The notes under the pieces: generated by a model
Database searches by the model: none
Seen by the model: the letters and a program-made list of their open reading frames with translations, nothing else
Told to the model about the DNA's origin: nothing
NCBI GenBank assembly: GCA_015686845.1
Contig: JADPRS010000001.1
Coordinates: 124,001-188,000 of the forward strand
Direction: 5' to 3'
DNA length: 64,000 bases
From: Lutibacter sp. B2
GTDB taxonomy: Bacteria; Bacillota; Clostridia; Peptostreptococcales; Thermotaleaceae
Position numbers and translations under genes: made by a program
In this document: in pieces, positions 10,884 to 63,125 of the stretch
Layout: every line of letters starts with the position of its first letter
How positions within the stretch are numbered: position 1 is the first letter of the stretch

Positions 10884-11304
10884 TCTTACTCATCTCCCTA
10901 ATGTTCAGTCCTTCCCATTTATTCTATAGTTTTAAATGGTACTATGACCTCTGCTGACTTCTGATAGTTCAACTATGCATTACTGCATAGGTTATCATTT
11001 AGATATATTATCTTTTGATGATGTATCTATCAGATCTCCCCAGGTAAGAACGTAATCTTTCATTCCATCTATCTGCCACATTTACTGCTATAGCTTTCGG
11101 GTGATACGGACTTTGTTTTGTTATGCAAACTCATCCAACTATACTCAGCCTCTTATGTGATTCGTGTTCCTCAGACCAGAATTTTGCCCTCCGACTTCCT
11201 TCAGATTCCACCTCACAGTGGACACCCTTGTCATTGGCTAACGTCTATATCACCTTCGACGCTCGGGACTTTCACCCTATAGATTACGCCCATGCTGAGC
11301 GCAC

Positions 11305-35896: not shown

Positions 35897-35925
35897 TGTA
35901 TAGGCGAACAAACTAAATATAAACT

Positions 35926-35992
35926 TCCATATAATTCGTGTAATAAGGTCACGAAGTTTCTACCAGCTAACCGTAAATTGCCTGACTATGGA
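35926..35992 (+). promoter_or_regulatory. Guanine-class purine riboswitch
   Basis: The aptamer shows the conserved core: P1 CCATA/TATGG, J1/2 TATAAT, P2 TTCGTG/CACGAA with loop GG, J2/3 TTTCTACC, the L3 loop CCGTAAA, and J3/1 GACTATG. The C in GACTATG (position 74 in the usual numbering) marks guanine/hypoxanthine specificity; adenine switches have T there. P3 has one C-C mismatch and a U-G pair. No terminator with a T run follows; a GACTAA/TTAGTC stem just before the AGGGAGG site may hide the ribosome binding site, suggesting translational control. Confidence 0.93.
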
Positions 35993-36035
35993 CTAAAAAA
36001 CGATAGTAAGTCTATTAGTCAAGGGAGGACATCCA

Positions 36036-59705: not shown

Positions 59706-59752
59706 GTAAAGAAAAAGCCTAGAAATCCTAAAAGGATTTCTAGACTGCTTTT
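59706..59752 (-). terminator. Terminator after pflA
   Basis: CTAGAAATCC and GGATTTCTAG form a 10-bp stem with a 4-base loop, extended by flanking AG/CT pairs and followed by TTTTTC; it overlaps the pflA stop codon. Confidence 0.8.
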
Positions 59753-60495
59753 TTCTGATCTTCATCAAGAATTGGAAGCTTATATTTTAAAAATATCTCT
59801 TTTACACCTTTAAGATTTTCTATTGTAGGTGGCTTTACGTCTTTTAATGGATATTCTATTTTTAATTCTTCCCACTTCGAAACACCCATTTGATGATAAG
59901 GAAGAATTTCTACTTTCTCTACATTGTCTAATGTAACAAGAAATTCGCATAACTTTTCCACATCATTTTTATCATCTGAATATCCTGGTACTAGTACGTA
60001 TCGAATCCAAACAGGAATATTTTTTTCACTCAAATACTTTGCAAACTGGAGTGTTTTTTCATTACCTACACCTGTTAAATCCTTATGTTTTTCAGAATCA
60101 ATTTGTTTTATATCCAAAAGTACTAAATCTGTATAAGGTAAAAATTTCTCAGCTTTATCTATATCACAATATCCTGAAGTATCCAAACAAGTATGAATTC
60201 CTTCCTCTTTACAAGCTTTGAACATTTCTGTGACAAACTCATATTGTAGTGTAGGTTCTCCACCTGATAAGGTAATTCCACCCTTTGTAAAGGAGAAGTA
60301 GGGCTTATATTTTTTTACATCTACCAATATTTCATCCATCGTCATTTGTTTGTGCATATGATTTGCCCAAGTATCACAATTATGACAATATTTACACCTC
60401 AGTGGACATCCTGCCAAAAATAATATATATCTAATTCCTGGACCATCTACGGTTCCACAAGTTTCAATTGAATGTACACTAGCAGTTGTTTTCAT
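59740..60495 (-). CDS. pflA: Pyruvate formate-lyase activating enzyme
   Basis: 251-residue radical-SAM enzyme that installs the glycyl radical on PflB. The cluster motif AGCPLRCKYCHNCDTW (CxxxCxxC) lies near residue 30, with the GTVDGPGIRYILF start typical of activases; TLSGGEPTLQYEF is the SAM-binding GGE motif. Length and pattern are normal. It lies 32 bases downstream of pflB on the same strand, the standard order, with GGGGAGG before the ATG. Confidence 0.95.
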   Translation of the reverse strand: MKTTASVHSIETCGTVDGPGIRYILFLAGCPLRCKYCHNCDTWANHMHKQMTMDEILVDVKKYKPYFSFTKGGITLSGGEPTLQYEFVTEMFKACKEEGIHTCLDTSGYCDIDKAEKFLPYTDLVLLDIKQIDSEKHKDLTGVGNEKTLQFAKYLSEKNIPVWIRYVLVPGYSDDKNDVEKLCEFLVTLDNVEKVEILPYHQMGVSKWEELKIEYPLKDVKPPTIENLKGVKEIFLKYKLPILDEDQKKAV

Positions 60496-60527: not shown

Positions 60528-62756
60528 TTACATACTCATATGGAATGTACGATTAATAATATCCATTTGTTGTTCTCTCGTTAATTTTATAAAGTTTACT
60601 GCATATCCTGATACACGAACTGTTAATTGTGGATATTTCTCTGGATGATCCATTGCATCTATTAATGTTTCACGATCAAATACATTTACATTCATATGGT
60701 GTCCATTTTGTATAAAGTAACCATCTAATAATCCTGCTAAATTATTTTTTTGGTCTTCTTTTGTCTTCCCTAATGCATTTGGAACGATTGAGAATGTATA
60801 AGAAATACCATCTTCACTATGTTTATAAGGTAGTTTTGCAACAGAGTTCATCGATGCAACAGCACCTTTCATATCTCTTTTGTGCATTGGATTTGCCCCT
60901 GGTGCAAAAGGTTCTCCAGCTTTTCTTCCGTCAGGCGTACTTCCTGTTTTCTTTCCATAAACAACATTTGAAGTAATTGTTAATATACTCATTGTTGGTA
61001 ATGAATTTCTATAAGTTGGGCACTTTCTAATCTTATTCATAAAAGTTTTCACTACATTTTTCGCTATATCATCTACACGGTCGTCATCGTTACCAAATGC
61101 AGGATATTCTCCTTCAATTTCAAACTCAGTAGCTATGCCGTTTTCATTTCTAACGACTTTTACTTTTGCATATTTGATTGCAGAAAGTGAATCTGCTACC
61201 ACTGATAAACCTGCTATGCCACAAGCCATGGTTCTTAAAACATCTTTATCATGTAATGCCATTTCTAATTTTTCGTAACTGTATTTATCATGCATATAAT
61301 GAATAACATTTAATGCATTTACATATAGCTTAGCTAACCAATCCATAAGTCTATCAAATTTTTCCATTACTTCATCATACTCTAGATATTCTGAAGTAAT
61401 TGGCTCAAATTTTGGTGCAACTTGAACCCCTAGTTTTTCATCTACACCACCATTGATTGCATATAATAATACTTTTGCTAAGTTTGCTCTTGCACCAAAG
61501 AATTGCATTTGCTTTCCGATTCTCATCGCAGATACGCAACAAGCAATACCATAGTCATCTCCCCAATAAGTTTTCATTAAATCATCATTTTCATATTGAA
61601 TAGAAGATGTATCTATAGAAACTTTTGCACAATATTTTTTAAAGGTTTCTGGTAAATCTTTTGACCATAATATGGTTAAATTTGGCTCTGGTGCAGATCC
61701 TAAATTGTATAGTGTATGAAGTATTCTATAAGAAGCTCTTGTTACAAGGGTTCTTCCATCTACACCCATACCGCCAATAACTTCTGTAACCCAGTTAGGA
61801 TCTCCACTAAATAATTCATTATAACCTGGTGTTCTTAAGAAACGAACCATTCTTAATTTCATAACAAAATGATCCATCATCTCTTGAAGTTCTTCTTCCG
61901 TATAAACACCATTTGCAAGGTCTCTTTCCATATAAATATCTAAGAAAGTAGTGACTCTACCAATACTCATGGCAGCACCATTTTGCTCTTTGACTGCTGC
62001 CAAATATCCCAAATATGTCCATTGAATGGCTTCTTTACTATCCTTAGCAGGTTTTGAAATATCAAATCCATAAATTTTACCCATTTCAATTAATTCATAT
62101 AATGATTTAATTTGTTCTCTTATTTCTTCTCTTAAACGAATGGTATCTTCAATCATCATATCTATTTCTAATGAAGTTGATTGTTCTTCTTTATCTTCAA
62201 TCAATCGATCTACACCATATAGAGCTACTCTTCTATAATCTCCAATGATACGACCTCTACCGTATGCATCTGGAAGACCTGTAATAACACCTGTTTTTCT
62301 AGCCAATCTTATTTGTGGCGTATATGCATCAAATACTCCTTGATTGTGGGTTTTTCTATATTTTGAAAAAGTCTCTTCTATCTCTTTATCTAATTCATAT
62401 CCATAAGCTTTACAAGAATCTTTCATCATCTTGATTCCACCAAATGGCATAATCGCTCTCTTTAAGGGGGCATCTGTTTGAAGCCCTACAATCTCTTCTA
62501 ATTCTTTATTTATGTATCCAGCTTTATGAGAAATAATCGTTGAAATGGTTTTAGGATCAATGTCTAATGTTCCATTTTTCTCTATTTCTTTTTTAAATAA
62601 ATCTGATACCTCTTTGAAAAGTTTTTTTGTTTTTTCTGTGGAAGATGATAAAAATGACTCATCTCCTTCATATGGAGTATAATTTTTTTGAATAAAATCT
62701 CTTACATTAATTTCTTCGTTCCAATCACCCTTAGTAAATCTGTTCCATGCCTCCAT
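60528..62756 (-). CDS. pflB: Pyruvate formate-lyase
   Basis: 742-residue glycyl radical enzyme converting pyruvate and CoA to acetyl-CoA and formate. The active-site cysteine pair occurs in [12 protein letters not shown] (about residue 405) and the radical glycine in [14 protein letters not shown] near the C-terminus. [20 protein letters not shown] and [25 protein letters not shown] are PFL core motifs. The enzyme works in strictly or facultatively anaerobic cells. GGGAGTGG precedes the ATG. It is under a ZTP riboswitch, a second promoter and a palindrome (see separate entries). Confidence 0.96.
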
Positions 62757-62815
62757 TTGCCCACTCCCTTTTCTATATTATGAAATATCATTATTTTTTA
62801 TTTTTTATAGCGTAC

Positions 62816-62827
62816 ATTGTATACAAT
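62816..62827. promoter_or_regulatory. Palindromic operator-like site before pflB
   Basis: ATTGTATACAAT is a perfect 12-base palindrome (extended 62813-62830 with one mismatch) resembling GntR-family operators (core TTGTATACAA). It lies between the internal promoter and the pflB start, where a bound repressor would block transcription. Confidence 0.5.
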
Positions 62828-62842
62828 ATACCTTTCATAAGT

Positions 62843-62871
62843 ATAATACGTTATTTCTTTAAATAATTCAA
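62843..62871 (-). promoter_or_regulatory. Candidate internal promoter downstream of the riboswitch
   Basis: On the minus strand TTGAAT (62866-62871) and TATTAT (62843-62848) are 17 bases apart. It lies after both attenuator hairpins, so transcription from it would bypass the ZTP riboswitch. Confidence 0.5.
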
Positions 62872-62919
62872 CCTTTTTTTGTTAATTATTTCATGAAGTT
62901 TCTCATCCCTATAGAAATA

Positions 62920-62966
62920 TAAAAAATCCCTCCTTGACTTGTAATTGTCAATTCCGGGATTTTTTT
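62920..62966 (-). terminator. Second, strong terminator in the pfl leader
   Basis: On the minus strand AAAAAATCCC pairs with GGGATTTTTT, with TTGAC/GTCAA as inner stem, followed by ATATTTC. It lies 13 bases after the riboswitch-linked hairpin and 160 bases before pflB. Confidence 0.75.
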
Positions 62967-62979
62967 CAAAAACAATATA

Positions 62980-63008
62980 GACCGCCCGGACTTGTAGCCC
63001 AGACGGTC
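62980..63008 (-). terminator. Riboswitch-linked hairpin of the pfl leader
   Basis: GACCGTCTGGGC and GTCCGGGCGGTC form a 12-bp stem (three wobbles) around a 5-base loop. Its left arm is the conserved 3' segment of the ZTP aptamer, so it competes with ligand binding. The T run after it (TATATTGTTTTT) is mixed. Confidence 0.75.
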
Positions 63009-63066
63009 GGCATATCTTCAAACACACTCCATGTGGTTCATTCCACTTCCGTCAGTCATGTGTTTT
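62997..63066 (-). promoter_or_regulatory. ZTP (pfl) riboswitch
   Basis: On the minus strand the aptamer has P1 AACACA/TGTGTT, the internal motif TGACTGACGG, a GTGG/CCAC hairpin, ATGGAG, and after a short linker the conserved GCCGACCGTCTGGGC that forms the pseudoknot and ZTP pocket. ZTP/ZMP signals folate and one-carbon shortage; binding breaks the terminator and turns the downstream gene on. The pfl motif was first named for exactly this position before pyruvate formate-lyase genes, which supply formate for one-carbon metabolism. Confidence 0.93.
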
Positions 63067-63097
63067 GTATTAGATAAATATTTTTTCTTTCTCTATC

Positions 63098-63125
63098 ATA
63101 ATAACATATATTGATTTTTTGTCAA
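63098..63125 (-). promoter_or_regulatory. Sigma-A promoter of the ZTP riboswitch transcript
   Basis: On the minus strand TTGACA (63120-63125) and TATTAT (63098-63103), 16-base spacer, with TGT directly before the -10 (extended). It lies about 30 bases before the aptamer. Confidence 0.8.

Follow-up and report, generated by a model that had tools for sequence, protein, structure and literature searches.

Clostridial ZTP–pflB leaders as possible three-strand relays, and a second stage that may have become a terminator ahead of an operator-bearing promoter

INTRODUCTION

The ZMP/ZTP (pfl) riboswitch, RF01750, occurs before pfl genes (PMC2864571, PMC7266159, PMC7337938, in their accessible text). 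The pflB leader studied here shares its aptamer, the competition of P3 and pseudoknot with a terminator, and the pfl target, but adds a second hairpin, a second promoter and an operator across 234 nt. The leaders of relatives add a putative relay to the Shine–Dalgarno sequence, which goes unmentioned in the accessible text of those three papers. Nor did we find a relay described in the open-licence literature on ZTP riboswitches, including the accessible parts of PMC13273304, PMC10085676, PMC10687018 and PMC7484762. Riboswitches acting on both transcription and translation are described, namely TPP with Rho, and lysC (PMC10907184, accessible part). The likeness lies in one ligand exerting control at two levels; the difference is that here the anti-anti-Shine–Dalgarno strand would be an arm set free from an intrinsic terminator.

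For the operator motif we found no description in the open-licence literature. In E. coli, PdhR exerts FadR-type GntR control over pyruvate-consuming enzymes, and the logic proposed below is alike. However, our candidate regulator is not a PdhR orthologue by model test (78 of 330 bits, below the cut-off), and operator and targets differ. Operators of the FadR subfamily (the MdcY, PrpR and HypR class) have 2 nt between GT and AC and weaker half-sites at 7–12 nt (PMC4494728, accessible part), and the motif found here resembles them in its TTGT-AT-ACAA core and extra half-site. The table of that paper, as accessible, holds a single clostridial FadR-subfamily protein; the difference here is a candidate regulon of PFOR, Pfl, Pta, PduL, AdhE and FocA in Clostridia.

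RESULTS

The pflB leader carries an intact ZTP aptamer

The window, by which we mean the whole 64-kb stretch of DNA analysed, contains the following genes and leader elements.

59740–60495, minus strand: pflA, pyruvate formate-lyase-activating enzyme (TIGR02493, 346 bits, cut-off 232)
60528–62756, minus strand: pflB, formate C-acetyltransferase, 742 aa (TIGR01255, 1240 bits, cut-off 994)
62761–62771, minus strand: pflB ribosome-binding region (AAAGGGAGTGG), read from the sequence
62980–63008, minus strand: T1, terminator hairpin competing with aptamer P3/pseudoknot (terminator scan, folding)
62990–63069, minus strand: ZMP/ZTP riboswitch aptamer, RF01750 (covariance model)
63098–63125, minus strand: P1, predicted sigma-70-type promoter of the ZTP leader, TTGACA-16-TATTAT (consensus match only)

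Along the minus strand the leader runs in the order P1, ZTP aptamer, T1, a second hairpin (T2), a second promoter (P2), a palindrome and the pflB start at 62756. The aptamer, which a preliminary description had recognised as a classical ZTP element, is real: the covariance model gives 59.5 bits against a gathering score of 39, and this is the only RF01750 match in the whole genome. Its J1/2–L3 pseudoknot strands pair fully, as GACGG/CCGUC; the Rfam consensus is GGCGG/CCGCC. That both strands differ without loss of pairing argues that the aptamer is not decaying. P1 matches the consensus at 11 of 12 positions, with TG preceding the second hexamer. T1 has 13 pairs and a predicted energy of −21.3 kcal/mol; its tail (TATATTGTTTTTG) has the poor T run already remarked upon, in that the run is delayed, yet the consensus terminator scan accepts it, and the form is that of an intrinsic terminator, a GC-rich hairpin followed by a T run. 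The 234 nt between aptamer and pflB hold the second hairpin, the second promoter and the operator.

Other RNA elements were noted in passing. Further ZTP aptamers of the window's family lie at L042, L043 and L044, before genes that we take to be fhs and purH. The window also contains a purine riboswitch aptamer at 35907–36008 (79.8 bits) and pieces of a group II intron at 10908–11222 on the minus strand.

Comparison with relatives raises the second promoter and the palindrome above chance

The second input would consist of two elements.

62843–62871, minus strand: P2, predicted second promoter, TTGAAT-17-TATTAT (9/12 consensus match)
62811–62833, minus strand: predicted operator, core ATTGTATACAAT at 62816–62827, with an extra half-site on either side (site model, comparison)

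Taken by themselves both are at chance level, and we do not use them as evidence in that form. Promoter-like matches number 8 in the leader region and 5.7 ± 2.5 when it is shuffled, so that P2, although present where the preliminary description had placed it, does not exceed chance alone. A perfect 12-bp palindrome is found in 22% of shuffles of the region, and the 64-kb window holds 30 of them. The genome has 3 copies of the exact palindrome word and 2 of its reversed control, and the two copies outside this leader adjoin a LysM-type gene and a membrane-protein gene (from open reading frames only); the search for further copies thus lends no support alone, and the support comes from relatives.

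Regions upstream of pflB were taken from 128 places in the order (48 loci and 80 regions), among at least 150 pflB places. The 22 places left unfetched are mostly below 64% identity or broken, several of them with ZTP; for one (G139:C35) the coordinates place a listed site 56 bp upstream, and ten were covered by a later leader set, with no further stacked case among these. TGTATACA occurs within 450 nt upstream in 74 of the 128 loci. With a weight matrix trained on 57 distinct sites, all from outside the window's family, 75 of the 128 pass the 1% shuffle threshold of 12.8 (the maximum of 384 shuffled upstreams being 19.3), which is conservation at orthologous promoters. This model ranks the window palindrome first in the 64 kb, with 20.3 and 18.9 on the two strands; the next independent site scores 12.2. 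By eye, other pflB loci of the window's family likewise have promoter-like hexamers immediately 5′ of the operator, and in relatives without ZTP the promoter-plus-operator module is found alone before pflB. Comparison thus raises P2 and the palindrome above chance. Judged in this way, the second input is a conserved predicted operator and the layered layout first proposed for this leader is real.

The form of the site agrees with the earlier suggestion of a GntR-like palindrome. TTGTATACAA is a palindrome of the FadR-subfamily type, GT-2 or 3 nt-AC with A/T-rich flanks, and one flank of the motif adds an ATAC half-site. Judged by eye, its position is downstream of the −10 box in the window's family, and upstream of −10 and over the −35 region in a larger, Peptostreptococcaceae-like family (f4); both positions fit within the RNA polymerase footprint, as for a repressor. 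As a separate observation by eye, CRP/FNR-like palindromes (such as TGTGATCCATATCACA) are present just downstream of the operator in five relatives (L005, L006, L007, L008, L009), and none was seen in the window leader.

The operator motif suggests a pyruvate-dissimilation regulon

In 244 order genomes, 137 sites were listed for TTGTATACAANATAC, compared with 13 when the pattern was reversed; the former precede pflB, PFOR, pta, pduL, adhE, focA and three FadR-type GntR genes. When 50 site loci were read, 31 sites stood before plausible targets and 19 did not. The 31 comprise PFOR (12), pflB (5), pduL-type phosphotransacylase (3), acetate transporter (3), GntR (3) and one each of adhE, pta, focA, lrgAB and a NuoE-like subunit, the target names having been tested on representatives. 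In a broad named set of many phyla, TGTATACA lies upstream of pflB in only 5 of 80 loci, which confines the motif to this order's relatives. The motif therefore suggests a pyruvate-dissimilation regulon, with a candidate regulator, for the order. Searching the window's own genome with loose patterns was useless, the counts equalling those of reversed controls: with two mismatches, GTATATTGTATACA gave 54+59 against 57+48, and TTGTATACAANATAC gave 59+52 against 49+61. That genome has one exact regulon site before a gene, and the one-mismatch matches lay in coding sequence where inspected.

No regulator gene was seen beside pflB in the neighbourhoods read. The search of the genome for GntR regulators that had been proposed returned nine GntR-type HTH matches, and among the proteins read two are of the FCD type (P0001, P0002). 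P0002, encoded right after ispE, has FCD and GntR domains. A homologue is present in 20 of 20 fetched loci (37–100% identity), beside ispE in 18, and is the single FadR-type profile match at 1e-15 in several operator-bearing genomes (G123, G137, G140, G155, G170, G173). In the window genome an operator-like site scoring 18.5 lies 60 nt before ispE; 5 of 18 ispE loci score above 9.1, the 99% control value, and a score of 18.4 was reached in 0 of 360 shuffles. From this indirect evidence we infer that the ispE-linked FCD-type GntR protein is the best candidate regulator of the predicted pflB operator. The three GntR genes whose own promoters bear exact sites (L297, L311, L326) are only 24–33% identical to the window genome's two FCD-type proteins, so the regulator could be another FadR-type protein. 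A further protein, GntR2 (L131), was dropped in favour of the ispE-linked one, having one weak by-eye site that scores below 8 in the site model. We also note that at L311 and L326 the operator-bearing FadR-type GntR gene is divergent from a neighbour whose product is presumably an arginine deiminase or amidinotransferase.

Could the palindrome instead be bound by an activator, or by a regulator outside the GntR family? The f4 sites upstream of −10 would suit this, but it is improbable given the FadR-subfamily form of the site, including the extra half-site at 7–12 nt (PMC4494728, accessible part), the sites at the three FadR-type GntR genes and at ispE–gntR, and the position downstream of −10 in the window's own family.

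The two inputs rarely share one gene

Among the 128 pflB loci, 31 have ZTP, 75 have the operator and 3 have both, far fewer than independence predicts (Fisher p 1.3e-10, ignoring shared ancestry). The stacked cases are the window (G000), G005 and G009, all of the window's family and each with a single counted pflB. Their P3 cores lie 255, 249 and 307 nt, respectively, from the start codon, compared with 77–185 nt in the other 28 ZTP loci. Ten genomes have separate ZTP–pflB and operator–pflB genes. On the PflB tree the three stacked genes and six operator-only genes form a supported nine-row clade, within which the stacked genes are not themselves a clade (three changes), and a place for pflB beside a YvyF-like gene or its neighbours is common to six genomes of the family. 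The clade and the common syntenic place indicate that the stacking came about at this locus itself, through either gain or differential loss.

Pairs of pflB genes in one genome, one under the operator and one under ZTP, include L010/L266, L015/L273, L250/L269, L170/L207, L171/L208, L172/L209 and L173/L210. The two copies in one genus are close paralogues, as would be expected had a duplication been followed by a sharing-out of the inputs. A ZTP–pfl leader from another order (L493) has 233 nt from P3 core to start, with a TTGACA promoter between; its site-like word (score 15.6) coincides with a −10 box, and this ambiguous case was left out of the stacked count.

The second hairpin aligns with a Shine–Dalgarno-sequestering hairpin of relatives

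Two features define the region after T1.

62921–62965, minus strand: T2, hairpin with A6/U6 ends (folding, alignment to relatives' leaders)
62928–62935, minus strand: orphan Shine–Dalgarno sequence AAGGAGGG (alignment with relatives' leaders)

T2 had been proposed as a second, stronger terminator. The hairpin and the six T directly after it are there, and the T run is indeed stronger than that of T1; the stem is not, at −16.3 kcal/mol with the A6/U6 closing pairs and −10.7 kcal/mol without them, against −21.3 kcal/mol for T1. The simple terminator scan does not list T2, probably because its stem has internal loops. What does not hold is the idea of simply a second, independent terminator. In the short ZTP–pflB leaders of relatives, T1 is followed by CCUCUGGACUUG ... 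AAGUCAAGGAGGUAUUUUUAUG, a hairpin hiding the Shine–Dalgarno sequence, and T2 aligns with it, AAGGAGGG included. By this alignment T2 is homologous to the sequestering hairpin and is best read as the converted second stage of a ZTP switch, apparently the relic of a stage hitherto undescribed for this RNA switch. The relatives' ATG corresponds to ATA in the window (about 62920–62918), and the actual pflB start is ∼160 nt beyond this old position, so that in the window no Shine–Dalgarno hairpin stands directly before the controlled start codon. We considered whether the stretch between T2 and P2 is a remnant of a deleted old pflB C-terminus; it is too short to judge, and we make no such claim.

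A proposed three-strand relay in the leaders of relatives

The alternative pairing involves two strands besides the Shine–Dalgarno strand (C).

62985–62994, minus strand: relay strand A (CAAGUCCGGG), T1 loop and 3′ arm, a potential pairing partner of strand B (alignment, covariation, folding)
62949–62958, minus strand: relay strand B (CCCGGAAUUG), 5′ arm of T2, homologous to the relatives' anti-Shine–Dalgarno strand (alignment, covariation)

In relatives the 5′ strand of the Shine–Dalgarno hairpin (B) has an alternative partner in the T1 loop and 3′ arm (A). When the ligand-bound aptamer was mimicked in folds by deleting the 15-nt T1 5′ arm, B moved from C to A in 18 of 22 leaders, the exceptions being the window, G042, G114 and G117. 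In an alignment of 21 leaders picked by eye for showing the relay, 92.3% of cells in the A:B helix are paired, equalled by 0 of 500 shuffles, and sliding the helix out of register lowers pairing to at most 59.5%. Two-sided changes occur at three of its pairs, including columns 24–71 and 29–66. In the same alignment T1 has no two-sided change and a nearly constant 5′ arm, and B:C is weaker in one register (75% paired). The pattern is kept in leaders of little common sequence, for example L477, L198 and L203.

Some A:B pairing is to be expected freely, since A must match the constant P3 strand and B the Shine–Dalgarno sequence, and non-cognate A:B duplexes already average −14.5 kcal/mol. T1 and T2 might then be tandem intrinsic terminators with no relay, the A:B complementarity being a by-product of T1 and of Shine–Dalgarno sequestration. 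We regard this as rather unlikely, though it is the strongest of the alternatives. Cognate A:B duplexes are stronger, with a mean of −18.1 kcal/mol (permutation p about 5e-5; 14 representatives, to which 22 leaders were reduced after dropping G215 from 23), and the cognate effect is present for B:C but not for A:C (p 0.085). The changes at columns 24–71 and 29–66 are two-sided, and column 24 lies within the T1 loop. Finally, in a test on leaders that had not been picked, counting starts within 140 nt of the P3 core (L036 and L038, whose starts were mis-set, fall outside this set), z is below −3 in 13 of 52 pfl leaders and in 1 of the 24 that precede other genes; at any start distance the figures are 15/64 and 2/31. 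The relatives thus have an alternative helix predicted to free the Shine–Dalgarno sequence, backed by covariation, as in dual control of transcription and translation, and their leaders imply a three-strand relay from termination to translation.

In the window the predicted relay is weak

The window keeps 7 of 8 relay pairs. Its A:B helix is weak (−13.3 kcal/mol, rank 11 of 14), with z −2.6 against shuffled B and z −1.15 against the dinucleotide-shuffled leader, the unbiased test. At equilibrium T2 is predicted to win even with the T1 5′ arm removed. In folds of the growing transcript without that arm, A:B is dominant up to the synthesis of C, and T2 prevails when the U run has been transcribed; in this model T2 may be partly gated by ZTP. 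The weak helix and the favoured T2 mean that ZTP may no longer reach pflB past T2.

These results bear on the possibility that the whole ZTP leader is a vestige, with T2 (together with T1) ending all P1 transcripts and pflB expressed from P2 only. A vestige would be consistent with the loss of the old start codon, with the weakness of the window's relay, and with the prediction that T2 forms whether or not the T1 5′ arm is present. However, the aptamer is intact, its two-sided GACGG/CCGUC change being unexpected in a decaying element, and G005 and G009 have the same stacked layout with no T2-like hairpin after T1. On balance we consider a vestigial leader unlikely, and a little more so than tandem terminators lacking a relay.

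DISCUSSION

Our preferred reading, to which we give a reasonable though not high degree of belief, is that pflB has two inputs in series, a ZTP-gated P1 and an operator-bearing P2, with T2 descended from a Shine–Dalgarno hairpin. RNA from P1 would stop at T1 (and T2) unless ZMP/ZTP occupies the aptamer; bound ligand would shield P3 and the pseudoknot from invasion by the T1 3′ arm, and read-through RNA would then reach pflB. P2, lying 3′ of both hairpins, would start a short mRNA without the aptamer. The site TTGTATACAA spans roughly +9 to +20 relative to the predicted start, and a dimeric FadR-type GntR protein bound there would most likely repress P2. The terms repressor-gated and ZTP-independent, used for this transcript from the outset, follow from the positions of the sites, and we use them in that sense. 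In effect pflB would be an OR gate, answering to folate/purine stress or to derepression within a pyruvate-dissimilation regulon.

In relatives, ligand would free the T1 3′ arm, which would pair with the anti-Shine–Dalgarno strand and so expose the ribosome site. With the old start codon lost and the A6/U6 arms gained, T2 in the window would be a back-up terminator, at most partly relieved by ligand. The full proposition, that ZTP–pflB leaders of Clostridia are three-strand relays, and that the window's second stage is now a second terminator before a repressor-controlled promoter, stacking modules which relatives keep on separate pflB genes, seems to us evenly poised between right and wrong.

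If the relay is true, one ZTP binding event would first permit transcription and then open translation. In the ZTP model system, aptamer and terminator have been joined to a foreign ribosome site (PMC10085676, accessible part); such constructs would cut the native leader short, and the foreign ribosome site would hide a relay to the native Shine–Dalgarno sequence. Inputs that are split in ten genomes and stacked in three offer a natural experiment on the merging of regulatory inputs through gene loss, and the proposed pyruvate-dissimilation regulon would concern an order that includes gut bacteria.
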